Positions 9,258 to 23,176 of a stretch of 64,000 nucleotides of DNA are shown piece by piece. A model generated the notes under the pieces. The model had not been told where the DNA came from, ran no database searches, and was given only the letters and a program-made list of their open reading frames with translations. The stretch is from positions 62,001-126,000 of the forward strand of contig NZ_VLPS01000003.1 of assembly GCF_007570865.1 (NCBI RefSeq), in the 5' to 3' direction. The stretch comes from Atlantibacter subterraneus. GTDB taxonomy: Bacteria; Pseudomonadota; Gammaproteobacteria; Enterobacterales; Enterobacteriaceae. Within the stretch, counting starts at the first letter, position 1; the number at the start of each line of letters is the position of its first letter. The translations under genes were made by a program, and so were the position numbers.

Positions 9258-9286
9258 ATGCCGGTCATCACGACCGGCATTTTTTT
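9258..9286 (+). terminator. Rho-independent terminator of thiI
   Basis: Perfect 9-bp stem ATGCCGGTC/GACCGGCAT with a 5-base loop, flanked by AAAA upstream and T7 downstream. It ends thiI transcription. The stop codon of the convergent lapC homologue lies inside the T-run, and the flanking A-run gives some U-tract on the other strand, so it may work in both directions. Confidence 0.9.
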
Positions 9287-10649
9287 ATCTCTCGCGGAAC
9301 GCCTCGGCGCGGGCGCGCAGAATCGGCTTCATCAGGTATTCGAGAATGGTTTTCTTACCGGTGATGATATCCACCGACGCCACCATGCCCGGAATAATCA
9401 GCAGCGGTTTTTCATTGCTACCCAGGTGATTTTTATCGGTGCGCAGGCGGATCACGTAGAAGCTGTTGCCCTCTTTATCGGTCACCGTATCCGGGCTGAT
9501 CTGCTCCAGCTTGCCTTTCAGCCCGCCGTAGATGGTGTAGTCATAGGCAGAAAACTTCACTACCGCTTCCTGGCCCGGATGCAAAAACGCGATGTCTTTC
9601 GGACGGATTTTCGCTTCCACCAGCAGGCTGTCATCCAGCGGAACGATCTCCACCAGGTCGTTGCCCGGCTGGATCACGCCGCCGATGGTGTTCACCAGCA
9701 TCTGCTGGACGATGCCGCGCACCGGCGACGTCACCAGGGTACGGTTGACCCGGTCTTCAATCGCCTTGCCGGAGGCTTCCAGCTTGCTGAGATCGGTACG
9801 CGCTTCGTTGAGCTGCGCCAGCGCTTCACTGCGGTAGCGGCCACGGGTTTCTGCCACCTTGCTTTCAATCTCGTTGATCGCTGCCTGGGCGCGCGGAATG
9901 GCTAGCGCCACCGAATCCAGCTGTCCGCGGGTTTCCACTTCGGAGCGCCGCAAACGCAACACTTCAACTTTGGATATCGCCCCTTTCGCCACCAGCGGTT
10001 CGGACATGTTGATCTCCTGCTGAAGCAGGCCAAGGCTGTTGCGGTACTGCACTTTCTTGGCTTCGAAATCTAGCAGCTCCTGTTTCTTCTGAATCAGTTG
10101 CTCATCCAGCCCGGCGATTTCGCTCTGGATGCGCTTTTTCATACTGGCGAACAGTTCCAGCTCGCCCTGCGCGATATCCGGCGCGCGTTTCTGGATTTCG
10201 TCGGAAATCGTCAGGCTCTCGGCGTCGTTAAGCTGGGCGGTCAGCCGCTGAATACGGGCCTCCAGCGCCATGCGGTCGGCTTCGGTTTCGCCAGCGTTGG
10301 ATTTAAAGCGCGTATCGTCGAGACGCAGCAGCGGCGCGCCCGCCTGTACCACTTCACCTTCGCGGGCATACACTTCCGCCACGATGCCGCCTTCCAGGTT
10401 CTGGATTTTTTGCAGGCGCGAGGAGGGGATGGCTTTGCCTTCGCCGCGCGTCACTTCATCAATCTCCGCCAGCGACGCCCAGGTAATGGCGGCGATAAAA
10501 AACGCCAGGATTGCCCACAGCGTCAGGCGCACCACGCGCGGCGTGTCGTCCAGCAGCGCTTTGTTCACTTCACTGGTGGTAAACTGATTGCTGTTTTTGT
10601 CGCCCAGCAGCCAGCGATTCAGGTGGCGTAACCCATCAGCGATTCGCAT
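9285..10649 (-). CDS. lapC: Type I secretion membrane-fusion protein, HlyD/LapC family
   Basis: Periplasmic adaptor that bridges the inner-membrane ABC exporter and the TolC-like outer-membrane channel. 454 residues: short cytoplasmic N-terminus, one membrane segment at about 42-60 (LWAILAFFIAAITWASL), a lipoyl-like half-motif (LEGGIVAEVYAREGEVV), a long coiled-coil hairpin at about 110-290 rich in Glu/Lys/Gln, the second lipoyl half (TSPVRGIVQQMLVNTIGG) and a beta-barrel C-terminus. It overlaps the lapB homologue by 14 bases, so it is translationally coupled. Symbol given by analogy with Pseudomonas lapEBC. Family certain; the cognate cargo is inferred from the adjacent adhesin. Confidence 0.93.
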   Translation of the reverse strand: MRIADGLRHLNRWLLGDKNSNQFTTSEVNKALLDDTPRVVRLTLWAILAFFIAAITWASLAEIDEVTRGEGKAIPSSRLQKIQNLEGGIVAEVYAREGEVVQAGAPLLRLDDTRFKSNAGETEADRMALEARIQRLTAQLNDAESLTISDEIQKRAPDIAQGELELFASMKKRIQSEIAGLDEQLIQKKQELLDFEAKKVQYRNSLGLLQQEINMSEPLVAKGAISKVEVLRLRRSEVETRGQLDSVALAIPRAQAAINEIESKVAETRGRYRSEALAQLNEARTDLSKLEASGKAIEDRVNRTLVTSPVRGIVQQMLVNTIGGVIQPGNDLVEIVPLDDSLLVEAKIRPKDIAFLHPGQEAVVKFSAYDYTIYGGLKGKLEQISPDTVTDKEGNSFYVIRLRTDKNHLGSNEKPLLIIPGMVASVDIITGKKTILEYLMKPILRARAEAFRER

Positions 10650-12819
10650 GGATCTGCCCCTTTTTCAACGCACTCATCACGGTCTCTTTCGGGCCATCGG
10701 CAATGATTTTGCCGTTATCGAGAATAATTAACCGGTCCACCAGCGCCAGCATTGAGGCGCGGTGGGTCACCAGCAGCACGGTTTTATCACTGATAATGGG
10801 CGCAAGCGCCTTCTTGATCAGGTCTTCGCTGGTGTTATCCATCGAGCTGGTGGGCTCGTCCATCAGCAACACCGGCGGATCGAGCAACAGCGAGCGGGCA
10901 AGTGTGATCGCCTGGCGCTGACCGCCGGAGAGATTCATCCCGCGCTCGCCCACCTGCATGTTGTAGCCGGAAGGATGGCGGCGGGCGAACTCATGGACCC
11001 CGGTGGCTTCGGCGACCCGCAGCATGGTTTCGTCGTCCACGTAGCTGGCACCGCACAGCAGGTTGTCGCGCAGCGTCCCGTTAAACAGGTGGATGTCCTG
11101 CGGGGCATAGCCGATATTATGGCGTAAATCGTGCACATCGATCTGGCGCGCGTCGATACCGTCGATCAGCACGCTGCCTTCATCCGGCTGGTAAAAGCCC
11201 ACCAGCAGCTTCGCCAGCGAACTTTTGCCGGAGCCGCTGCGGCCAATAATGCCGATTTTTTCGCCCGGCGTGACGGTCAGGGAAATATTATTCAGCGACG
11301 CCTGCTGGCTACCGGGGTAGCGGAACGTCACGTTGCGAAACTCAATCGCGCCGGTCAGGGTTTCGCGCTTGAGGGGCACTTCGTCCTGCTGCACTTCCTG
11401 CTCCAGCTCCATCATGCCGTCGATGGTGTGTTTGGTCATTTTGGCGCGCTGATAGCGGGTAATCAGGCTGCACAGCTGGCCGATCGGCAGCATCGCGCGG
11501 CGATTGAGCAGGTAGCAGGCGATCAGCCCGCCCATGCTCAGATGGCCGTTGATAATCAGATACACGCCGCCGACGATCATAATCACGCCGCAGGCCTGTT
11601 GCAGCCAGTGGGTGAAGTTCACCGCCACATAGGACAAGGACTTTACCCGCAGCTCCAGCTTGCTGAGGCTGCCGATGATCTGTTCCCACTGGTACTGGCG
11701 TTCGCTCTGGGCGTTATTCAGCTTGATGGCATCCAGCCCGCTCAGGGTTTCTACCAGCATTGCCTGGCGTTCGCTGGATAACTTAAAGGTTTTCTGGATG
11801 GTGGCGATCAGCGGGCGTTGGATCAGCCAGTTCACCAGCATCGCGACCGGGTAAGCCAGCAGCGGGATAAACACCAGCGGCCCGCCGATAATCCCTACCA
11901 CCGCCAGGATCAGCAAGGTGAACGGGAAATCGATCAGCGCGGTCAGCGTCAGTGATGAGAGAAAATCGCGCAGCGACTGGTAGTCCTGGAAATTCTGCGC
12001 AAAGCTGCCGACGCGCGGCGGGCGCAGTTTCATCTTCATGCCCAGCAGCCGCTCAAACAGCGCTGCCGAGACGATCAGATCGGTTTTCTTACCGGCAATA
12101 TCCAGGCAGATGCTGCGCAAGATTTTCAGGATCAGATCGAACACGTAGGCGATGGTGATGCCAATCGCCAGCACCCACAGCGTGGCGGTGGCCTGATTGG
12201 GTACCACGCGATCGTAGACGTTCATCACGAACAGCGGCGAGCACAGGGCGATCAGGTTGATCAGGAAGCTCGCCACCACCGCATCGAGATACAGGAATTT
12301 CGACAGCTTCAGGGTATCCTGGAACCAGGCTTTGGTGCGCGGGATCAGCGCCGTCGGCTGGCTGTCGTATTCATGTTTCGGCTGAATAAAAACGGCTTTG
12401 CCGGCGTAGAGTTTTTCCAGCTCGGCAATCTCCAGCGTAATCGCGCCGCCTTCGGTTTCGCCAGGCATCAGCCGGGCCTTATCGCCTTCCAGCGCCGTCA
12501 GCACCGCCGCCTGGCCGTTTTGCAACACCAGGATCGCGGGGAGCGACAGCGCCGTGATTTTGGTCACCGGGCGTTGGATCACCCGGGCTTTTAATCCGGC
12601 ACGCTGCGCGGCGCGCGGCACGGTGCTCAGCGTCAGGCAACTGGACTGCAACGGCAGACCGGCGGTCAGCACATTGCGGCTGGTGATAATGCCGTGCAAT
12701 TTGCAGACAACCATCAGGCAATCCAGCAGCGGATCGTCATGATTGAGTCTTGGGTCGTGGCGGTTCGTCTCGTCTGACGAGAGATCCTGAATATCAGTAA
12801 TATCGTTGATCAGTGCCAT
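10636..12819 (-). CDS. lapB: Type I secretion ABC transporter, LapB-like
   Basis: Inner-membrane exporter ATPase for the large adhesin. 727 residues in three parts: an N-terminal C39-peptidase-like domain (about 28-155), a six-helix ABC membrane domain (about 165-450) and an ATPase domain with Walker A GRSGSGKSS, signature NLSGGQRQA, Walker B VLLMDEPTS and switch His in VTHRAS. In the peptidase-like domain the position usually held by the catalytic His (in HFVV) is Ala in GQAAVL, so it is likely a non-cleaving substrate-docking domain, as in transporters of adhesins without a double-Gly leader. It lies between the lapE and lapC homologues on the same strand. Confidence 0.94.
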   Translation of the reverse strand: MALINDITDIQDLSSDETNRHDPRLNHDDPLLDCLMVVCKLHGIITSRNVLTAGLPLQSSCLTLSTVPRAAQRAGLKARVIQRPVTKITALSLPAILVLQNGQAAVLTALEGDKARLMPGETEGGAITLEIAELEKLYAGKAVFIQPKHEYDSQPTALIPRTKAWFQDTLKLSKFLYLDAVVASFLINLIALCSPLFVMNVYDRVVPNQATATLWVLAIGITIAYVFDLILKILRSICLDIAGKKTDLIVSAALFERLLGMKMKLRPPRVGSFAQNFQDYQSLRDFLSSLTLTALIDFPFTLLILAVVGIIGGPLVFIPLLAYPVAMLVNWLIQRPLIATIQKTFKLSSERQAMLVETLSGLDAIKLNNAQSERQYQWEQIIGSLSKLELRVKSLSYVAVNFTHWLQQACGVIMIVGGVYLIINGHLSMGGLIACYLLNRRAMLPIGQLCSLITRYQRAKMTKHTIDGMMELEQEVQQDEVPLKRETLTGAIEFRNVTFRYPGSQQASLNNISLTVTPGEKIGIIGRSGSGKSSLAKLLVGFYQPDEGSVLIDGIDARQIDVHDLRHNIGYAPQDIHLFNGTLRDNLLCGASYVDDETMLRVAEATGVHEFARRHPSGYNMQVGERGMNLSGGQRQAITLARSLLLDPPVLLMDEPTSSMDNTSEDLIKKALAPIISDKTVLLVTHRASMLALVDRLIILDNGKIIADGPKETVMSALKKGQIHANR

Positions 12820-12912
12820 AATCTGCCGTACCTGATGACAGGCAAAGTAAGAAGCGCTATTTCATCCGCAACAGATGAAATAACGCCTGGTTCAATGGGT
12901 TACCGGTTCGTC

Positions 12913-14265
12913 TTAATGAAGATCGGGTAAGTCCGCCTGAGTGGTTTGTTGTCCGTCCAGCGGCTGTGCGGCAGTCGGCGGTTGAATCGACATGGATTTC
13001 AACAGTTCGCCCATCCGCGCATTAATGCGGTAGGTCGAAAACATTTCAACAAACTGCAATTCTACATATCGGCGCTGGGCGCTGAAAACTTCATTTTCGC
13101 TGTCCAGCATATCCAGCAGCGAACGATCCCCCAGGCTGAACTGCTCCTGATAGGCGGTACGCACCGTCATACTGCGATCGGCGTACTCTTTGGCGATCGG
13201 CACCTGCTGTTCTGCATTACGCAGGGCGTTCCACGACAGGCGCAGCTCTTCATTCAGCCGGCGCAGAGCATTGCGCTTCACGTCCTGGGCTTCTTTGGTG
13301 CGGTAAGCGTAAGAGGAGAGGGTGGCTTTATCGCTGCCGCCATTGAACAGGTTGTAGCGCATGCGCATCATTGCCTGCCACTCCTGGTTGTGACCGCGCG
13401 TTCCGTCAATGTTGTTATCCATGGTGCGGCCCACTTCCACATTCACTTCCGGGTAAAAGCGGGATTTGGCGGCTTCGTACTGCGCCCGGGTGGCTTCGAT
13501 ATCGGAATCCGCCAGTTTCAACAGCGGGCTGTTGTCCAGCGCGATCTTACGGGCTTCTTCCAGTGACGCGGGCACCGCGAATTTCGCCGGTAGGGTCAGA
13601 TTTTCCGCTTCCATCCCGGTGACGCTCTGGTAATTGGCGCGCGCGTCTTCCAGGTTGGTTTGTTCGGTCAGCAGATTGTTGCGCGCCTGGGCCAGACGCG
13701 CTTCTGCCTGCTCGTGATCCGCCAGACGGCCTACGCCCTGCTCGGTACGCAGCGTGATTTGATCAAAAATGCGTTCATGGTTGGTCAGGTTTTCCTGGGC
13801 CAGCGCCACCATTTTTTCGCGCATCAGCACATCGAGATAGCTCTGCACCACCTGCAATGCCGTGGTTTCGCTGGTATCCATCACGTTATAGGCGCGGGAG
13901 TTCACGGTGGCCTTCTGGCGCGCCACTTCGCTGGTGGTGGCGAAACCGTTAAAAATATTCTGGCGCAGGTTAATGCTTGATTCGCTGCGATTCAGGTCAC
14001 GCTTGTGATCGCCTAACGCGCGGGTCGTCGCGTTATCGGTTTGCTCCCAGCCGGTGCCTGCCTCAAGATTCAACGTCGGTAAATAGCCGCCTTTTGCCGC
14101 CTGCAAATCATGTTCAGCAGAGTAACGGCTGTTGGCGGAGGCGCTAATTTCGGGATGGGAAGCCAGTGTTTGTTTGATCGCATTTTCAAGAGTGGTGGCG
14201 TGAGCCAGGCTTAATGTCATCAGAGGCAGCGTGAGCCCTAACATTAAGTTCTTGCGGTAATTCAT
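12913..14265 (-). CDS. lapE: TolC-family outer-membrane channel, LapE-like
   Basis: Outer-membrane efflux/secretion duct of the type I system. 450 residues with a signal peptide (MNYRKNLMLGLTLPLMTLSLAHA, cut before TTLENAIK) and the two homologous helical repeats of the TolC family (first repeat LENAIKQTLASHPEISASAN; second about residue 230 on, LEEARKIALDNSPLLKLADSDIEATRAQYEAAKS). First gene of the secretion operon lapE-lapB-lapC; 93 bases separate it from the lapB homologue. It is downstream of the adhesin gene but separated from it by a terminator hairpin, so it probably has its own promoter in 14266-14415. Confidence 0.93.
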   Translation of the reverse strand: MNYRKNLMLGLTLPLMTLSLAHATTLENAIKQTLASHPEISASANSRYSAEHDLQAAKGGYLPTLNLEAGTGWEQTDNATTRALGDHKRDLNRSESSINLRQNIFNGFATTSEVARQKATVNSRAYNVMDTSETTALQVVQSYLDVLMREKMVALAQENLTNHERIFDQITLRTEQGVGRLADHEQAEARLAQARNNLLTEQTNLEDARANYQSVTGMEAENLTLPAKFAVPASLEEARKIALDNSPLLKLADSDIEATRAQYEAAKSRFYPEVNVEVGRTMDNNIDGTRGHNQEWQAMMRMRYNLFNGGSDKATLSSYAYRTKEAQDVKRNALRRLNEELRLSWNALRNAEQQVPIAKEYADRSMTVRTAYQEQFSLGDRSLLDMLDSENEVFSAQRRYVELQFVEMFSTYRINARMGELLKSMSIQPPTAAQPLDGQQTTQADLPDLH

Positions 14266-14343
14266 GATTCTTCCTTTGTAGTACTTATTCCCTGTTGTTG
14301 GATAAGCAATAACAGAGCGTTTTTATCCAAAAAGCCCTCGCCG

Positions 14344-14368
14344 CAGTTAACGTTTTGATCGTTAACTG
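14344..14368. promoter_or_regulatory. Perfect 9-bp inverted repeat upstream of the secretion operon
   Basis: CAGTTAACG - 7-base spacer TTTTGAT - CGTTAACTG, fully symmetric, about 80 bases upstream of the lapE start. The position fits an operator of the lapEBC promoter. It could also form an RNA hairpin, but no U-run follows directly on the minus strand. The cognate regulator is unknown. Confidence 0.45.
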
Positions 14369-14415
14369 AAGAAGAGAGGACGCTTTAAATAACGTTATAT
14401 TCGATCATCAGGAAA

Positions 14416-14445
14416 ACATCCCTCGCAGAGCGCCGCGAGGGATGT
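14416..14445 (-). terminator. Terminator downstream of the adhesin gene
   Basis: On the minus strand an 11-bp perfect stem ACATCCCTCGC/GCGAGGGATGT with an 8-base loop is followed by TTTTCC, starting 13 bases after the adhesin stop codon. It separates adhesin transcription from the lapEBC operon, which suits the very different expression levels of cargo and exporter. Confidence 0.75.
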
Positions 14446-14457
14446 CCATATTTACAT

Positions 14458-17400
14458 TTACGACACGGGGTCCGGTTTGGCGATCAGGCTATCCATCAGC
14501 GACTCATCGCCGCCATGGTAGCTGTCCGCCGCAGGATCGACCGGCGCGACTTCAGCAACCGGAGTGGCATGGCCCTGGGCCGCGTCATCCACAGTCTGGG
14601 TGCCGTTGCCTTGCTCGACCACCTTAATCAGCGAACTCAGATCCTGGCTGTTATCGGTATCGGCCAGAACTTCGCTTAGCACGACAGGTTCCGCGCCGCT
14701 GCTGGTGTCAGGGACCGCCGCAGGGCTGGCTTGCGCAGGAGCGGTATCCGCCGTATCCACATGCGTCTCTTCCATATCGCCCAGCAGATTGCTGAGTGAG
14801 GCGTCAGGCTGCGGCGTCAACGCGGTGGTTGGCGTACTGCCCTGACCGCTGTCGATGTGGTTGAGGCTGATATCATCTTCAACCACCAGCAGCGTTGGCG
14901 CGGCATGGTCTTCGGCTGGCGTCGCGGCATCATGCTGCGCGTCGTGTTCCGTCGCGCTGTCATGAGTATCGGTATCTGCACCATCATGGTCCACCAACAT
15001 CATCCGGCTGGACATCATCTCAGGCTCAGGCACGTTGGTCTGCTCGCCGGTTTCGCCATCAAAGGTGAAGTGGGTGTCGTGGTGTTCGCTGGCGGTAGAA
15101 TCTACCTCCATCTTGATCTCGCCCAGATGATCGACGCCTTTTTCCAGCTCAACTGTGATAGTCCCTTTAAAGGTTGGGCTGTGCAGGTCGATGGTATAGG
15201 TGCCATCTTTATAGCTCACCATACTGCCATCGGAGACCACGACTTTCGCGCCTTCCGGGATACCGGAGAGCTTGATTTGCGTCAGCTGTTCGGCGTTATG
15301 GTCGCTGGACAGGTTAAGGTCAACATTCAGCGAAACCTGCTGAACTTTGGTTTCTACAACGGTGGTAGTGGTGCCGGGATTGGTCGTAGAGCCACCGTCG
15401 CCGAAGATCACGCCTTCTATCTGGTTAGAGTTGCCGTACAGCCCTTTGCCGTGGCTATCGGTGACCTTTAACCCATCGTAGGTGTTGTCCTGGCTATTGG
15501 CATTGTTATTTGAAGACGAAGTGACTTTATAGTCAGTGCTGTCGCCTTTAACGAAGATATAATCTTTACCGACCTGACCAGCGTCACCCCGGTTACCGGT
15601 GATACCGTTTAATGGCCTGAAATCCTCTTTGCCGCCGGTCCAGTCGCTCTGCTTGTAGAAGCCACCCGTTTTGTCGCCAACCACGAAGATATCCGAGTAT
15701 TTACTCGAATTGGAGTTCGCGTTGCCGGACTGATCGTAATACTTGATCTGGTTAGCGGGATCGGCGCATGTCGGCGGAGTATCACCTACGATGCCGTTAT
15801 ACGGGCTGTCGGGCGTTAACCACACGCGCACGTTGGAACCGATAGCAACGATCTTACCATCCTGAATATCGAAGCCATCCGGATTGCCGCTACCGCCGTT
15901 AACCTGAATAATTTTGCTGCCGGTAGTGACTTCGGTCTGGGATACCGTGACTGAGACGTCGAGTTTGATATTGGCATCGGCGTCGGCGTCGGAATCAGCG
16001 TCGGCATCAGCGTCCGAATCGGCATCAGCATCAGCATCAGCATCAGCATCGGCGTCCGCGTCCGCATCGGCGTCTGCGTCCGCATCTGCATCGGCGTCTG
16101 CATCCGCATCGGCGTCGGCATCAGCGTCGGCGTCCGCATCGGCGTCAGCGTCTGCATCCGCATCGGCATCTGCGTCCGCATCGGCGTCAGCGTCGGCATC
16201 TGCGTCGGCATCGGCGTCAGCGTCGGCATCTGCGTCCGCATCGGCGTCCGCGTCAGCGTCTGCATCTGCGTCCGCATCGGCATCAGCGTCGGCGTCGGCG
16301 TCCGCATCAGCGTCAGCGTCAGCATCGGCGTCGGCGTCAGCATCGGCATCTGCGTCAGCGTCTGCATCAGCATCAGCATCTGCATCAGCGTCTGCATCAG
16401 CGTCTGCATCAGCGTCCGCATCGGCGTCAGCGTCTGCATCGGCGTCCGCATCCGCATCAGCGTCCGCATCGGCGTCGGCGTCGGCGTCCGCATCGGCATC
16501 AGCGTCTGCGTCCGCATCGGCATCCGCGTCTGCATCAGCGTCTGCATCGGCGTCGGCGTCTGCGTCCGAATCGGCATCGGCGTCTGCATCTGCATCTGCA
16601 TCGGCGTCTGCATCGGCATCGGCATCGGCGTCCGCGTCCGCGTCCGCGTCGGCATCAGCGTCGGCGTCCGCATCGGCATCAGCATCAGCGTCTGCGTCGG
16701 CATCCGCGTCTGCGTCCGCATCGGCGTCCGAATCGGCATCAGCGTCGGCATCCGCATCCGCATCAGCGTCGGCATCCGCATCGGCGTCCGCATCAGCGTC
16801 GGCGTCCGCATCGGCATCTGCATCCGCGTCGGCATCAGCGTCGGCATCAGCGTCTGCGTCTGCGTCCGCATCAGCGTCTGCATCCGAATCGGCATCTGCA
16901 TCAGCGTCGGCATCTGCATCTGCATCAGCGTCTGCATCGGAATCGGCGTCGGCATCAGCGTCGGCGTCCGCATCGGCGTCTGCATCAGCGTCTGCGTCCG
17001 CATCGGCATCCGCATCAGCGTCTGCATCCGCGTCGGCGTCTGCATCCGAATCGGCATCAGCATCCGCATCGGCATCCGCATCTGCGTCGGCGTCGGCGTC
17101 TGCATCAGCGTCCGCATCGGCATCGGCATCGGCGTCCGCGTCGGCATCAGCGTCCGCATCGGCGTCCGCATCTGCGTCGGCATCGGCATCCGAATCGGCA
17201 TCCGCATCAGCGTCCGCGTCGGCATCGGCATCCGCATCCGCATCAGCGTCGGCATCCGCGTCCGCATCGGCATCGGCATCCGCATCAGCGTCCGCATCAG
17301 CGTCTGCATCGGCGTCTGCATCACCATCATCTGGGCCAGTCGGGTCCGTCGGATCGGTTGGGTCCGTTGGGTCCGTTGGGTCCGTCGGGTCCGTCGGGTC

Positions 17401-18144
17401 CGTCGGGTCTGTTGGGTCCGTCGGGTCCGTCGGGTCCGTCGGATCGGTTGGGTCCGTTGGGTCCGTCGGATCGGTCGGGTCCGTTGGGTCCGTCGGGTCT
17501 GTTGGGTCCGTAGGGTCTGTCGGATCCGTTGGGTCCGTCGGATCGGTCGGGTCCGTCGGATCTGTTGGGTCCGTAGGATCGGTAGGGTCCGTTGGCTCTG
17601 TCGGTTCCGTCGGATCGGTACCCGCATTGTTATCCGGGTTTGCAGCAGGTTGTTCAGCCGCACCAGCATCCAATAACGTGAATTCTTCTACTGGCGCGTC
17701 GTCGGGAAAGTCGAGGCCGATAGTAGGATATCCCGCGTTGGGGTCGATAATTTCCCCAGTCAGATCGAGCACAACATGGGTATGCGCGCCGCCTGCGCCA
17801 GGCGTGCCGCCGCCGCTTGCGCCTGCTTGCGGGCCTGCTGCGGTTGGGTCGAGAGTCTGGGTCGGGTCCATACCGTCGGCAATCGCTTGCTGTAGCGCGG
17901 CGACGTCGGATTGTTCACTGGCCGCAGGAAGGGTGATGCCATTCGCATCCCATACGGTATCGCGGCCAAGATCGAGAGTCTTACCATCAGCGAGAGAAAG
18001 GGTTACCGCGCCTGCTGCGCCGGTAAGAACTTGCTCGCCTTCAAATATTCTGTCGCCTTCAATTAACAGGCGTTGGCTTCCATCGGGGGAAACAACGAAA
18101 ACTTGTCCTATGACTGCCTTAACCAGGCCAACTACTCCACTCAT
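14458..18144 (-). CDS. LapA-like retention-module adhesin with Asp-Ala tract
   Basis: Predicted type I secreted surface adhesin of 1228 residues. Residues 1-100 form a retention module ([20 protein letters not shown]..., [25 protein letters not shown]). T101-A102-A103-G104 is the expected LapG di-alanine cleavage site. Residues 176-269 are 31 Pro-Thr-Asp-type triplets, and residues 275-724 are 450 residues of almost pure Asp-Ala with about eight Ser replacements. Residues 725-1228 are a non-repetitive region with Asn/Ser/Gly-rich beta-type sequence, one cysteine (PPTCADP), a His/Asp-rich linker, and a terminal part expected to carry the secretion signal. No RTX nonapeptides are visible. It is much shorter than Pseudomonas LapA. 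ATG at 18144 follows AAGGAAG. Function as a biofilm adhesin is inferred from module and neighbours. Confidence 0.88.
15973..17322 (-). repeat. Asp-Ala coding hexanucleotide repeat tract
   Basis: 1350 bases made of a degenerate 6-base unit (GAY GCN on the coding strand), giving 450 residues of alternating Asp and Ala, about 225 acidic side chains. Around eight Ala positions are Ser (coding-strand GAT TCG or GAT TCC). Third codon positions vary freely (GCA, GCC, GCT or GCG for Ala; mostly GAT/GAC for Asp), so the repeat is conserved at protein level but scrambled at DNA level. It leaves several other frames open, which creates long spurious ORFs. Confidence 0.97.
17338..17619 (-). repeat. Asp-Pro-Thr coding nonanucleotide repeat tract
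   Basis: 282 bases encode Thr followed by 31 Asp/Glu-Pro-Thr triplets (residues 176-269 of the adhesin); two near the N-terminal end are Glu-Pro-Thr. The 9-base unit reads GGGTCCGTC/GGATCGGTT-like on the plus strand and is far more uniform than the Asp-Ala tract, so slipped-strand length change is more likely here. The proline spacing suggests an extended stalk-like linker after the retention module. Confidence 0.95.
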
Positions 18145-18465
18145 ATGAACTTCCTTCGCTATTTTTTATTTTTGTTAGAGGGTCCCTTTATGCTGTGCAC
18201 GTGATTAATCTGAAGGGACATCAGTAAGCATTGCTTATGAAAATGACCATAATGATAAAATATGATTTACGATGTTTTAACCGGGATATTAAACCGCTTT
18301 TTGGGCGATATATTCAAGGATTAAATCATTTAGCAAAGGGAACGTGAGCAGTCAGGCCCCACTGAATAAGGGCCTGGCATGAATATGTTTTAGCCACCCA
18401 CCATAATTAGTAGCTGCGTGATAAATAATAAAAATAAATTAACAATATTCCTACAATTACCTAAG
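18145..18465. promoter_or_regulatory. Intergenic region upstream of the adhesin
   Basis: 321 AT-rich bases between the 113-residue gene and the adhesin start, and the presumed promoter region of the adhesin. It contains an inverted repeat CAGGCCC/GGGCCTG (18353-18376, 10-base loop) that may end transcription from the lapG-lapD operon, although no U-run follows it on the minus strand. No convincing sigma-70 promoter could be chosen by eye, and no coding region is seen. Confidence 0.4.
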
Positions 18466-18807
18466 TTAAATTAACTGTTCATCATCATCGTTAATTAATC
18501 CTTCCAGACCGCTTAATTGACGGCGCGCCTGGGCGCGGTTCATTAATTTAGTCTGAGCGGCATGCGGAAGGTCAGTAATACTGATCACGCCTTTACTCAT
18601 TAAGACTTCAATTAAGTCTTCCAGCACACGAACCATTTCCAGGTCGCTGCGCTGCAACTGAAGTAGCGTGGCGGTACGCGCATCCTGCTTTTTAAGCCAT
18701 TCGACAATTTCCGGCGTGGTGTGCTGCTGCTCTTCCGTCATTCCAACGAAAGGCGCTACCGCCACCCGAACGATCCGTCCTGTGGCATCCCGTTCGATAT
18801 AGTGCAT
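18466..18807 (-). CDS. Small conserved protein of the lapG-lapD operon, function unknown
   Basis: 113 residues, soluble, no signal peptide or membrane segment. N-terminus MHYIERDATGRIVRVAVAPF, then a helical section (SDLEMVRVLEDLIEVLMSKGVISITDLPHAAQTKLMNRAQARRQL) and an acidic tail INDDDEQLI. The sequence resembles, from memory, a small pseudomonad family misleadingly named tryptophan synthase beta-like; no catalytic site is evident. The start is supported by AGGAGC. It begins 45 bases after lapD and precedes the adhesin, so it may assist the Lap system, perhaps as a cytoplasmic partner of LapD. Function not assigned. Confidence 0.75.
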   Translation of the reverse strand: MHYIERDATGRIVRVAVAPFVGMTEEQQHTTPEIVEWLKKQDARTATLLQLQRSDLEMVRVLEDLIEVLMSKGVISITDLPHAAQTKLMNRAQARRQLSGLEGLINDDDEQLI

Positions 18808-18852
18808 ATTCGCTCCTGTCGGGTAACCTGCGCTGCCCGTTATCGTAAGTGG

Positions 18853-20796
18853 TTAACGGCGCAGCGTGCTTGCGTCGCCAAAGAAACGCCCCATCGCGCC
18901 ATAAAGGCCGATTTTTTCCAGTTCTGCCAGCTCGCCCATGGTTTCAACGCGCTCGGCGATCAGCGGTAAATTGATCTGCCGCGTGGCCCAATATATAGCC
19001 TGGATGAATAGTTTCTTGTCTTCTTCTTTGTTCAGATTGCGGATGTAGCTGCCGTCCACTTTAATCCACGCCAGCCCCCACTGCGGCAGGTTGCCGATAA
19101 GATGGAAGCGGCCACCGAAATGCTGGATCCCCAGATTACAGCCCGCCTCTTTCAGCCTGGACATAATCGCGCTGACGCGCTCCGGGTCGGGCAGTTCATT
19201 TTCATCCAGTTCCAGCGTCAGCCGCGAAGCCAGCTGCGGGGCGCTTTTTAACGGGCTGAGCAGCGCATCAAGGCTGGCGTCGTCGGCGACGCTTTCGCCA
19301 CTGATACTCAGGGCAACGCTATCCTGCGATTTCGCCATTTCACGCAGCGTCTGCTTCAGCATCACCTGGTCCATGCGCTTGCCCAGGCCGAGACGGTGGA
19401 TCCACGGCATAAAGCGTCCCGCTGGAATAATTTCCCCGTTTTCCGCTTTGATGCGTGCCAAAATTTTATGATGTAACACCACCTGTTGAGAGTTGCACTG
19501 GTAAACCGGCTGCGAGTACAGCTCGAAAGACTCTGACTGCAACACCGACGCCAGCCGGTTATACCAGGTATGGTGATCGTCACCGTTGATGACCGCCAGC
19601 GCCCGGGACTGGCTGGCGAAATAGCTCATCTCAGTCTCTGCCATCGCCAGCAGGTTATCGGCGCGGACCAGTACCGTCTGCGATGTGTCGCCATAGTAGA
19701 AATCCGTCTGCGCAAAGTGGGCCACCGGGGTGACATCGCTCAGGCCGGTCTCATGCAGGGTTTTAAACTGCGACGCCAGGGTGCCCATCAGCGTTTCCAT
19801 CTCCTGAGGGAGGATGGTTGGGGCGACGAGGGCAAACTCCCCGCCACGCACCCGGGCCAGCAGCCCGTCACCGTGGAAAAATCGCTGCTGGACGTTAAGT
19901 AAAATTTTCGCCACGGCTTTAAGCAGCTCATCGGTTTTGGCCCCGCCCATGCGCTGGTTGAGGCCCATCAGATCCTGCAAGCGGATCAGAATCAGGTGGC
20001 CTGAGGCGTTTTCTTCATCGCTAAGGCGCGATTGCAGATGGATATCAAAGGCGCGGCGGTTACTCAGGCCGGTCAGGCTGTCGTGATAGGCCTCCTGGCG
20101 CAGCGCTTCGGTGCGCTGGGCCTGCTCGTTGAACAGCGCTTTCAGTTGAGTCACCATCATATTGATGGTTTCAATCACCCGGCGAAACTCCGGCGTTTTC
20201 GGCAGGGCGGGGAGATTAAGAAACTCGCGGCGGCTGATGGCGGTGGCCTGTTCGACGATATAGTTCAGCGGGCGCAGCTGGCGGCGCAGCAACAGCATCG
20301 CGCCCAGCAGGCCAAGCACGCTACAGCTAATCAGCCAGATCAGGCTGCCGATGGTGTTGTCCCACAGCCGGCTCAGCGCGAACATCGGATGGCTGACCAC
20401 TTCCACACGCGCTACCTGCTCCCAGCCGCGCGACACGATGGCATCGCCCTGGCCCGGGTTGATACGCACCAAATCGGCGAACCAGCCCGGTACATCGGCG
20501 CTTTGCGGCGCGTCGCTGCGTTCCTGAATGATCTGGCCGGTTTTAATATCAATAACCCGAATGCGGGAAAAATAACCGCTATCGAAAATCGAACTCACCA
20601 TCAGTTCCACCATGGTGGGGTCGTCGATATTGGCGGTTAACGAGACGCCCAGCGCGGTGGCGGCATCCTGAGCATGAGCGCTTAACTGGTTTCGGTATTG
20701 TTCACGCGAGCTTTCCAGCGAGACGAAAAAATTCCCGCAAAAAATCACCAACGTGAACAGACAAATGCCAATCAGTAGCTGTTTATAGAGGGACAT
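18853..20796 (-). CDS. lapD: c-di-GMP receptor LapD (degenerate GGDEF-EAL)
   Basis: Inner-membrane receptor that binds c-di-GMP in the cytoplasm and, when bound, holds the protease LapG in the periplasm so the adhesin stays on the surface. 647 residues: TM1 about 7-25, periplasmic LapD/MoxY-type domain about 26-150 with Gly124-Trp125 (Trp125 is the LapG-docking residue in Pseudomonas), TM2 about 151-171, HAMP, GGDEF-like domain with RGGEF at 317-321, and EAL-like domain with KIL at 444-446 in place of EAL and QHFGGR in place of the DDFG motif. Both catalytic sites are therefore inactive, as expected for a receptor. It starts 9 bases after lapG. Confidence 0.94.
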   Translation of the reverse strand: MSLYKQLLIGICLFTLVIFCGNFFVSLESSREQYRNQLSAHAQDAATALGVSLTANIDDPTMVELMVSSIFDSGYFSRIRVIDIKTGQIIQERSDAPQSADVPGWFADLVRINPGQGDAIVSRGWEQVARVEVVSHPMFALSRLWDNTIGSLIWLISCSVLGLLGAMLLLRRQLRPLNYIVEQATAISRREFLNLPALPKTPEFRRVIETINMMVTQLKALFNEQAQRTEALRQEAYHDSLTGLSNRRAFDIHLQSRLSDEENASGHLILIRLQDLMGLNQRMGGAKTDELLKAVAKILLNVQQRFFHGDGLLARVRGGEFALVAPTILPQEMETLMGTLASQFKTLHETGLSDVTPVAHFAQTDFYYGDTSQTVLVRADNLLAMAETEMSYFASQSRALAVINGDDHHTWYNRLASVLQSESFELYSQPVYQCNSQQVVLHHKILARIKAENGEIIPAGRFMPWIHRLGLGKRMDQVMLKQTLREMAKSQDSVALSISGESVADDASLDALLSPLKSAPQLASRLTLELDENELPDPERVSAIMSRLKEAGCNLGIQHFGGRFHLIGNLPQWGLAWIKVDGSYIRNLNKEEDKKLFIQAIYWATRQINLPLIAERVETMGELAELEKIGLYGAMGRFFGDASTLRR

Positions 20797-20805
20797 GGCT
20801 ACTTC

Positions 20806-21507
20806 CTATTCATTAATCACAAATCCTTCTGCACGCATTCGAGTCAGAAGATCTTGCCAACGGGAAAGACGCTTGCTGTCACCCACGCGTTTATTGCTGC
20901 CAGCCTGCGGCAGCCACATTCCTTCACCGTTGAAGGAATAAACCGGCAGCAGATCGGGGCGCTGGGTAGCGGGTAATATTGCGTCTTTTAAATTATCAAG
21001 CACCAACGGAATGGCATTCGGGGTCGGATACCAGGTCAGTACCATATGCGCCTGATTTAATTGCAACGCTTTAACGTAGGTGATCCGCAACTGGCTCGCC
21101 GGGACCCCCATTTCGCGCAGAGTGATATATTTGGCGATGGCGTAATCTTCGCAATCGCCGGCTCCTTTACGCAAAAATTCGATGGGCGTCGCCCAGTAAT
21201 CCTGCTGACGCCACACCACAATATCGTCCTTAAATTCCAGACGTTGATTAAAAAATTGATTCACCTGGCGAAGTTTTTCCCGCACGTCGCCTTGCGGCGG
21301 CTTTTTCAACAGCGCTGCCCATTCGTCGATGCGCCGCTGCGCCTGCGGCGTGGCGACGCCGTACAGCCGTTGGGTGCTGTTATCAATGGCGACGAAATCC
21401 CAGTCTGCTTCCAGCCCCGGCGACAGCATCAGCAGCAGGGCCAGCCAGCAGGGCAGGCCGCTTCGCCGCCAGCGGGCTCCGGGAAGCGCTGAGAAAATAG
21501 CGGTCAT
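20806..21507 (-). CDS. lapG: Periplasmic cysteine protease LapG
   Basis: Calcium-dependent transglutaminase-like cysteine protease that clips the retention module of LapA-type adhesins and releases them. 233 residues with an N-terminal hydrophobic export signal (about 15-35). Catalytic triad visible: C119 (GAGDCEDYAIAKY), H154 (NQAHMVLTWY) and D171 (LVLDNL); the spacing is close to the Pseudomonas enzyme. The acidic residues D118 and E120 flanking the cysteine match the calcium site. It lies 9 bases before lapD and 7 bases after the 553-residue gene. Confidence 0.94.
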   Translation of the reverse strand: MTAIFSALPGARWRRSGLPCWLALLLMLSPGLEADWDFVAIDNSTQRLYGVATPQAQRRIDEWAALLKKPPQGDVREKLRQVNQFFNQRLEFKDDIVVWRQQDYWATPIEFLRKGAGDCEDYAIAKYITLREMGVPASQLRITYVKALQLNQAHMVLTWYPTPNAIPLVLDNLKDAILPATQRPDLLPVYSFNGEGMWLPQAGSNKRVGDSKRLSRWQDLLTRMRAEGFVINE

Positions 21508-21514
21508 CAGGTGA

Positions 21515-23176
21515 TTAACCGTTACGTGGCGTCATAAGGCTATGCCGGTATTTGTAATACGCAACATAGCCGGACAGATAGTGCTCTACATCGTCGATGC
21601 GCACCCGGTAGCTGTGATGGCGAATAAAAAAGCTGCCGACGATGCGCGCCGGATTCTTAAAGAACATCGCCAGTTCCGGCCAGAAAAAGCCGTTTGCCAG
21701 GTATCGGGCGCGGGTTTCCAGCGCCAGATTGAATTTGTCGAGATCGAAACCCTCCAGCAGGTGGCGATGCTCAGATTCAGCAAGCCGGGCAATCATATGC
21801 GACGCTGCCATCATCAGCTCCAGCAGCGTCGGGTAAGTGGTTACCCGGTTAAGCACAAAATCAAGATGGTCGCGCACGTTATCCAGCCCAAACTGGTAAT
21901 AGCGCTCCAGCGGGCGGTAGCGCGTCAGTTCATTAATGCAGTAGCTCAGCCAGTGGTCATGCGCCTGCCAGTGCTTCTGTTCAATAAAATGATCCACCGC
22001 TTTTTCGACGATGTTGAGCCACTGCGGATCCTGCGTCAGCTCGTAGAGCCGCATCAGGGCGAACGCGGCTTCACCGTCGTAATAGATAATCCGCTGTTCG
22101 GCTTTAAGGGATAAATCCGCTGCGTGCAAAACATGCACAAAACCGCCGGTTTCCGGGCGCTGCATAAAGGCGATGCCCTGTGCCAGCCGGATCATTTGCT
22201 CAACATAACGCCGGTCGCCGGTCAGCTCGGTGTATTTCGCCATCGCCAGGATCGTCACCGCGTTGCCGCCGAGTTTGATCTCTTCGCCAGTATCTACCAG
22301 GAAATCGGCCTCGCCGCCGTCCGGCAAGGGATAGGTTTTTATCAGTTCGCCCGAGAGATCCTGTAGCGCCCGCTGAATGGCCGCAAAAGGCGCGGCATCG
22401 CGGGTAATTTCCCAGCCTTCCAGCAGCGCGTAGGTCGAGCTGGCGTGGCGCAGGGTGTTGTAAGTTGGAATGGCGCGGTCAAAACAGGGAAACCAGCCGT
22501 AATGGTAGCGGCCCGATTTTTTCACCTGGCGTGCCAGATAATCGGTGGCGCTGTGGATCATTGGCTCCAGCGACTGTTGCCAGCGTAATAACTGGCGGTA
22601 ACCGGAATGACGGCCCTGAGGAGTCAGCGAATAGCATTTATCCCCCTCGCAGAATACGCCCCGGGTGGTAAAGCGCCACAGCACGTGCTCATCGCTTTGC
22701 GGCCATTCAAGTTTTATTCCGTAACGATAGCGGGAGTAGTGTGCCAGATTGACGGCGTTAGGCGTGGCCACGCCTTCGGTTCCCTGATACAGCAACGCGT
22801 TGGCATTAATTTCCTGTTCCAGGATGGCGTGGGTAAAGTCGCTGTCAAAACTCAGGCCGAAGCGGAAATAGTTGCGCTTGGTTTTGCTTAATTTTTCTTT
22901 TAATTCGCTCCAGCGCAGCGCTTCGGGTTTATTTACTGCATCAATGCGCAGCCAGATAAACTGTTTGTCATTTTTTTGGCGTAAACGCTGGAGCGCCGCT
23001 GCGCCATCCAGCCAGGCGTCAGTAAACGTTGCGCCGCGCGCAATATGAATGTCTGCGCGTTCCTTCCCCGTGGAGGCGCTGAAAAACAGGATATAAGCGG
23101 GAAACGGCGCAGGCAGGGCGCTGACGCACGGTTCAATAGCCGAACGTGCCTGATCCAGTAAATCACTTAATGACAC
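21515..23176 (-). CDS. Predicted alpha/alpha-barrel (six-hairpin glycosidase-like) protein, lapG operon
   Basis: 553 residues, no signal peptide, probably cytoplasmic. The C-terminal two thirds repeat the pattern of helical-hairpin toroids seen in six-hairpin glycosidases, sugar epimerases and C5-epimerase-like proteins: [64 protein letters not shown], then [14 protein letters not shown]-like segments rich in His, Trp and Tyr. The N-terminal 170 residues look like a separate alpha/beta domain. GTG start at 23176 supported by AAGGAG with 7-base spacing. It is the first gene of the lapG-lapD-113aa operon, which implies a role in surface adhesion or exopolysaccharide handling. Substrate and activity are unknown. 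Confidence 0.75.

Follow-up and report, generated by a model that had tools for sequence, protein, structure and literature searches.

We analysed a 64,000-nucleotide stretch of the Atlantibacter subterraneus genome (contig NZ_VLPS01000003.1, positions 62,001 to 126,000; hereafter, the window). A lapA-like adhesin gene encoding 1228 amino acids is located at 14458..18144 on its minus strand, as are all features below unless stated otherwise. The gene was assigned from the list of open reading frames (ORFs), a match to NF033682, and its occurrence in five of five Atlantibacter genomes. The N-terminal residues 5–142 (17719..18132) comprise a retention module (NF033682, E = 7.5e-33, 113.8 bits against a cut-off of 50). 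Within this module, TAAG at residues 101–104 (17833..17844) is predicted to be the LapG cleavage site, as we take di-alanine motifs of the TAAG type to be cut by LapG. An earlier note on this DNA had proposed both the LapA-type module and the LapG site, and both were borne out. TAAG or PAAG begins at residues 101–103 in all 26 tract-bearing rows that we compared, in which L054 and L067 are one locus listed twice (loci are numbered with L and genomes with G).

The module is followed by a linker of 32 Thr-X-Pro tripeptides (29 TDP, two TEP, and one TGP; residues 176–271, 17332..17619), delimited by Tandem Repeats Finder (TRF) and from the sequence. The central Asp-X tract spans residues 275–724 (15973..17322), with the TRF array lying within these bounds. 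This late start of the tract is shared by L048 and L051 and not by L049 and L050. The tract had been described as 225 Asp-Ala dipeptides; the span and the number of units are correct, but eight units are Asp-Ser, and the unbroken tract thus consists of 217 Asp-Ala and 8 Asp-Ser dipeptides. The whole protein contains 328 Asp, 35 Glu, 24 Lys, and 7 Arg residues, giving a net charge of −332.

The C-terminal part was divided into a head (residues 725–1039, 15028..15972) and an acidic C-terminal region (residues 1040–1228, 14461..15027). Structure prediction of residues 725–1228, a check suggested in the earlier note, gave a split Ig-like domain with an inserted domain as the head, followed by a mostly disordered C-terminus with a predicted local distance difference test (pLDDT) score mostly below 50. 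The linker, the folded head, and the disordered acidic region were absent from that first account. The C-terminal tail (SLIAKPD in the window protein) is conserved among relatives and probably serves as the signal of the type I secretion system (T1SS), judging from sequence. By eye, it looks like the tail of relatives with other shafts; TIGR03661 was not among the NCBIfam matches.

A Pfam scan of the whole 1228-residue protein found no family at E 0.01 and, in particular, no Ig, VCBS, or RTX domain, which agrees with the view that the tract stands in place of an Ig-like or VCBS shaft. Tandem Ig-like or VCBS extenders had no match in Pfam or NCBIfam, and the Asp-X tract occupies their position. 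A C-terminal block of RTX nonapeptides was not detected by Pfam, though the same library finds HemolysinCabind in L076, L075, and L101. The staphylococcal ClfA model scored 203.4 bits, mainly on the tract, far from its cut-off of 1150, and three other such models also remained below their cut-offs. Two long frames overlap the tract, namely a poly Ser-Ala frame on the plus strand (15914–18148, 744 amino acids) and a Met/Arg/Thr-rich frame on the minus strand (15816–17669, 617 amino acids). Both appear to be by-products of the repeat.

The adhesin gene is part of a cluster, transcribed on the minus strand in the order lapG, lapD, a 113-amino-acid ORF, the adhesin gene, lapE, lapB, and lapC; all but the small ORF were identified by NCBIfam. 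lapG (20806..21507) encodes a cysteine protease (NF045674, 377.5 bits, cut-off 320) and lapD (18853..20796) a GGDEF-EAL receptor of cyclic di-GMP (c-di-GMP; NF045673, 1023.1 bits, cut-off 1020). The catalytic-signature positions of LapD read RGGEF and KILAR, presumably as expected of a receptor rather than an enzyme. The 113-amino-acid ORF (18466..18807) between lapD and the adhesin gene had no Pfam or NCBIfam match at 0.01; it is conserved and adjoins the adhesin gene in relatives too. Downstream, lapE (12913..14265) encodes a TolC-type outer-membrane channel (TIGR01844, 3e-86), lapB (10636..12819) the T1SS permease/ATPase (TIGR03375, 4.5e-283), and lapC (9285..10649) the T1SS periplasmic adaptor (TIGR01843, 4.3e-131), all three over the cut-off. 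Of 27 relatives' loci, 23 contain all six neighbouring genes, complete or in part (20 of 24 distinct loci, as three genomes are counted twice), and the remaining four (L118, L126, L128, and L129) end at a contig or locus border. Kluyvera georgiana and Pseudocitrobacter faecalis (L128, L123) have paired neighbouring lapA-like genes, each with a tract.

We examined how widely the tract occurs. All five Atlantibacter genomes searched, including that of the window, carry the gene with its tract. The retention module was found above the cut-off in 55 of 392 genomes of the family, and in 20 of 154 genera at E 0.001. The search gave 65 places, from which four fragments were excluded, leaving 60 loci and the window. 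With at least 15 dipeptides after the module as the criterion, the tract was present in 24 of the 60 loci and in the window; 17 loci reached a stop codon without a tract, some of them short or probably broken (L082, 106 amino acids; L105, 336; L108, 263), and 19 ran off the contig. Counted by genome, 23 of the 55 module-bearing genomes (23 of the 392 searched), belonging to eight genera, carry an Asp-Ala, Asp-Ser, or Asp-Thr tract on the module.

A scan with the head alignment, in genomes partly overlapping those of the module search, found 21 named loci in Atlantibacter, Superficieibacter, Kosakonia, Silvania, Leclercia, Phytobacter, Pseudocitrobacter, and Kluyvera, plus a record labelled Citrobacter freundii. 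Judged by the head, the nearest named relative is Atlantibacter hermannii 3608 (93% over 504 residues). In 20 of the 21 loci, the frame where the head match begins contains at least 10 dipeptides; in L125, this frame holds just the first 98 residues of the head. No megablast match to 12900–21520 was obtained in a collection of 5,426 E. coli genomes, and the head gave no tblastn match in plasmids. The earlier note had raised the objection that the tract might be a sequencing or assembly artefact. As the tract occurs in all five genomes of the genus, and in eight genera, this objection is excluded.

We next compared the residues of the tract. In 22 proteins, over the span from the first to the last run, the Asp phase contains 6768 Asp, one Glu, and no other residue. 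The partner phase of the same proteins contains 3343 Ala, 3042 Ser, 377 Thr, 4 Gly, 2 Met, and 1 Asn; Ala, Ser, or Thr thus accounts for 6762 of 6769 partners, and no phase slip occurs in these spans. This set excludes L088, L099, and L104, whose frames are broken, and L067, the copy of L054. Of the 22, three extend past the end of their contig, and two pairs each come from one genome. Eight further named loci were checked likewise, and seven were equally clean. The eighth, L115 of Kosakonia quasisacchari, has three single His insertions, each shifting the phase, and mixed Ala, Thr, and Ser partners with some Val.

A wider tally of 43 tracts gave 11588 Asp and 4 Glu. It was drawn from one locus per record in 32 records, 31 of them with tracts; two of these records could derive from a single genome split in half. 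Tracts were defined here as runs with D or E at every second place and at least 70% Asp, so that other residues in the Asp phase cannot show in this tally. At the neighbouring fourfold third positions, 43.7% of bases are purines; if this position were free in the Asp codons, approximately 5063 Glu would be expected, against the 4 seen. As a control, the C-terminal region of 19 tract proteins, mostly disordered in one model, contains 615 Asp and 391 Glu. Since this region admits Glu, the bar on Glu is a property of the tract. The heads of the tract proteins fall to 30% identity while the Asp of the tract hardly changes. From a nearly invariant Asp beside freely varying synonymous sites, we infer selection acting on the protein.

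The partner residue is less uniform. Ala is the main partner in the majority of genomes; Ser in G031, G013, G372, G240, a Pseudocitrobacter metagenome-assembled genome, Kluyvera georgiana, and Kluyvera genomosp. 3; and Thr in Pseudocitrobacter faecalis and P. vendiensis. On a LapB tree of 23 sequences, the partner needs three changes (minimum, two), against a mean of 4.8 with shuffled labels, and the starred branches of this tree force two changes for Ser.

The codons of the window tract are varied. It uses all eight Asp-Ala hexamers in an order near chance, with GAT 123 and GAC 102 times, and GCC 79, GCG 49, GCT 47, and GCA 42 times. Its longest exact repeat is 39 base pairs (bp); in 100 shuffles, the longest averaged 33 bp and never exceeded 47 bp. 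Thus, the codons have been scrambled while the protein stayed pure. A chance repeat or plain microsatellite was rejected because the synonymous codons are scrambled and Asp is invariant. Several relatives carry long exact DNA repeats (369 bp in L052, 240 in L113, 201 in L126, and 168 in L049 and L070; approximately 30 in shuffles), indicating recent segmental copying within their tracts. Copying alone preserves silent and replacement changes alike, so that selection on the protein would still be required.

The serine codons of Asp-Ser tracts follow the order TCN TCN AGY (L052, L054, L063, L070, L072, L126, and L130). Exactly two dipeptides separate one AGY from the next in 192 of 202 cases in L052, 171 of 182 in L054, 111 of 117 in L063, 220 of 234 in L070, and 116 of 121 in the first tract of L126, as counted over the six commonest gap classes. 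The long Asp-Ser tracts hold this phase over hundreds of units. TCN and AGY cannot be interconverted by one silent change, and the phase is therefore probably a relic of an 18-bp unit from which the tracts arose. No clear codon period of this kind was seen in the Asp-Ala tracts of 14 loci; the exceptions were a slight lag-3 excess in L056 and L119, and values raised at all lags in L121.

The head was then compared with other proteins. In the predicted fold, the Ig-like domain is split into residues ~727–741 and 932–1029, and the inserted domain spans ~744–924. The insert probably binds a ligand, and the head is probably the actual adhesive part. A head profile matched 9cse, the split domain and ligand-binding domain of AhLap from Aeromonas, and the alignment covers the whole head. 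A search of the PDB by single sequence returned just two chance-level rows (E 0.84 and 0.85), Pfam gave scattered weak matches on 25 heads (best, 0.006), and Foldseek with the 504-residue model found nothing that reached the 0.001 threshold. Three of the five Atlantibacter genomes (L048, L049, and L050) have a duplicated head.

The unfiltered head profile matched 19 tract proteins and seven tract-less proteins with the same retention module. Four of these seven were covered by a Pfam scan, with L084, L093, and L094 outside it. L076 and L101 have Big domains and RTX, and L075 has LapA, Calx-beta, and Big_9 domains and RTX. L079 had no Pfam match and carries a repeat of the Pro-Pro-Val-Asp-Val-Thr type (residues ~190–520) between the retention module and two heads. 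The head is thus found on at least three kinds of shaft. The tract proteins that end in a stop codon and lack a head match are L088, L099, and L104, those with broken frames.

As the same head occurs on other shafts, the tract most probably acts as a polyanionic stalk in place of the extender shaft. We consider it probable that the gene encodes an adhesin secreted by the T1SS and controlled by LapD and LapG, in which an (Asp-X)n polyanion takes the place of the Ig-like extender shaft. The modules, the gene cluster, the purity of the tract, the preference for Asp over Glu, and the occurrence of one head on several shafts are established from sequence, and from these we infer retention, cleavage, the function as a stalk, ligand binding, and any effect of Ca2+. 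The N-terminal module would stay lodged in LapE at the outer membrane and so anchor the chain. Linker and tract would exit the cell as an unfolded stalk extended by its charge, with an estimated contour of at most roughly 150–160 nm for 450 residues, and the split Ig domain with its insert would perform the binding at the distal end. When c-di-GMP drops, LapD would free LapG, which would cut at TAAG and shed the adhesin. Divalent cations, above all Ca2+, would probably make the stalk shorter or stiffer or cross-link it.

Several points weigh against this explanation. The bar on Glu goes beyond what a plain charged spacer needs, since such a spacer should tolerate Glu. The length of the tract in relatives ranges from 31 to at least 712 dipeptides. 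Because of segmental copying, the units of a tract are not independent, and the counts overstate the number of separate trials. At least five genomes (L113/L088, L099, L104, L125, and L126) apparently have a broken frame within or close to the tract, and two of these records are titled complete chromosomes or chromosome assemblies; the breaks may reflect sequencing errors or indels, slippage, decay, or dispensability. As no RTX block was detected, folding outside the cell may not be driven by Ca2+. In Paracoccus denitrificans, overproduction of polysaccharide is described to restore a thick biofilm without BapA, the Asp-Ala adhesin discussed below (PMC13235738).

The exactness of the tract raises the question of whether it is ordered. 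Through its strict alternation of Asp and small residues, each tract could form a strand with two faces, and Ca2+ would staple the Asp face to other tracts; adhesins on the same cell or on adjacent cells would then zip together, and the head would be secondary. The near absence of Glu (11588 to 4) would suit such packing, as would the small partner in 6762 of 6769 positions and the alternation without slips in 22 spans. Alternating Asp polypeptides can form Ca2+-dependent sheets; our literature search on this point gave nothing useful. P. denitrificans, whose BapA has 891 Asp-Ala repeats, is reported to attach better with added Ca2+ (PMC5588039). However, the alternation in L115 slips three times by one inserted His each, slippage in 6-bp steps would likewise leave the phase unbroken, and the chemically similar staphylococcal Ser-Asp repeats have been described as a flexible, disorder-prone stalk. 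We regard an ordered tract as unlikely.

A role in secretion appears very unlikely. The tract would act as a Ca2+-capturing ratchet that draws the chain out through the T1SS, and would replace the C-terminal RTX block. The window protein has no RTX match, RTX repeats occur in three relatives that carry this module and head on other shafts, and three further large adhesin-like proteins have Asp-X tracts as well. However, two of these three, L162 and L163, show RTX-like repeats too by eye, some members of the subfamily have just 31, 40, or 55 dipeptides, and L079 lacks both an Asp-X tract and a Pfam RTX match. Nucleation or binding of a calcium mineral by the tract at the cell surface seems slightly less probable still: Kumar and Spiro speculate along this line for BapA, with oyster aspein as the analogue (PMC5588039), but it is speculation for BapA as well. 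A neutral minisatellite or assembly artefact with no function, to which low-complexity DNA, frame breaks in several assemblies, and recent segmental copying could point, is extremely improbable given its presence in five of five genomes of the genus and in eight genera, with varying synonymous sites and invariant Asp.

The three other proteins with Asp-X tracts are encoded in G005, G709, and G762. The ClfA model, which may miss some such tracts, matched 4 of 398 Pseudomonadota genomes at 1e-20, including that of the window. The protein of G005 (L161, same family) is a 3389-amino-acid frame with BapA_N, a single run of 952 Asp-Ser/Ala dipeptides, and a terminal T1SS target domain; the retention-module search gave no match in G005. 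In G709, which belongs to another family of the same class, the retention module is followed by 210 mostly Asp-Ala dipeptides in a 3388-amino-acid frame with RTX-like repeats by eye. An RTX-like protein of G762 has Asp-X runs of 37 and 55.

Low-complexity stalks are usually assumed to tolerate substitution. Here, hundreds of residues are kept to Asp and not Glu, which raises the question of what alternating Asp can do that Glu cannot. In LapG-linked adhesins, the shaft is a replaceable part, as one head occurs on Ig/Calx-type, Pro-Val-Asp, and Asp-X shafts, and the loci provide stalks of naturally different length and chemistry that could serve studies of biofilm mechanics and materials. A bolder proposal, which we hold only tentatively and consider unlikely as a whole, is that the Asp-X tract, rather than being a passive spacer, is a sequence-exact ionic material, a polymer alternating Asp with small residues, that Ca2+ switches into an ordered, self-associating zipper. 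Its length, from 31 to more than 700 units, would set the grip between cells, and LapG would shed the zipper. Such a material would have been reached on several Gram-negative backbones (the LapG-linked subfamily, the BapA_N protein, the RTX-like proteins, and Paracoccus BapA) and in staphylococci, with which the Asp-Ser versions share the 18-bp codon unit.

Among known systems, BapA of P. denitrificans has 2211 residues and 891 Asp-Ala repeats (Kumar and Spiro 2017, PMC5588039). According to the published account, its deletion causes a severe biofilm defect, 10 mM Ca2+ stimulates attachment, and a strain lacking both predicted diguanylate cyclases forms more biofilm (PMC5588039); a 2025 paper describes bapA mutants as unable to attach (PMC13235738). 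Like the window adhesin, BapA as described is linked to a T1SS, consists mostly of Asp-Ala, and is encoded beside T1SS genes, with 891 repeats against 217 plus 8 Asp-Ser here. Unlike the window adhesin, it is alphaproteobacterial, and the words LapG, LapD, LapA, and retention are absent from the main text of PMC5588039. BapA gives a precedent in print for the suggestion of the earlier note that such a tract could bind calcium or another metal. AhLap of Aeromonas hydrophila, as described, has a retention domain, a T1SS, and a ligand-binding insert projected from a split Ig domain (PMC12077191); the first two are shared by the window adhesin, and a similar head is predicted for it. The window adhesin differs in its (Asp-X)n shaft in place of Ig domains, in the lack of detected RTX, and in its length of 1228 residues against 5047 (PMC12077191).

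The staphylococcal Ser-Asp MSCRAMMs are sortase-anchored proteins of Gram-positive bacteria, and their binding domains are unlike that of the window adhesin. ClfA and the Sdr proteins are described as having an alternating-Asp stalk between the anchor and the binding domain, as proposed here (PMC3324548, PMC6533592), and the Asp-Ser tracts of the present loci share the 18-bp codon unit reported for S. aureus clfA (PMC3324548). The same source lists 424.33 SDSDSD copies in an adhesin of K. pneumoniae MGH 78578 and a long Asp-Ser adhesin in A. baumannii. These are likewise Gram-negative surface proteins with a very long alternating-Asp tract, theirs being Asp-Ser, and the protein of G005 may be of the same kind. 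Our literature search, whose coverage left most subscription journals outside, found no paper on the LapG-linked subfamily of Enterobacteriaceae. Asp-Ala and Asp-Ser surface adhesins of Gram-negative bacteria are already known, and what is new within the literature searched is the LapG-linked subfamily, the exchange of shaft and partner residue, the counts that document the bar on Glu, and the codon unit shared with clfA.

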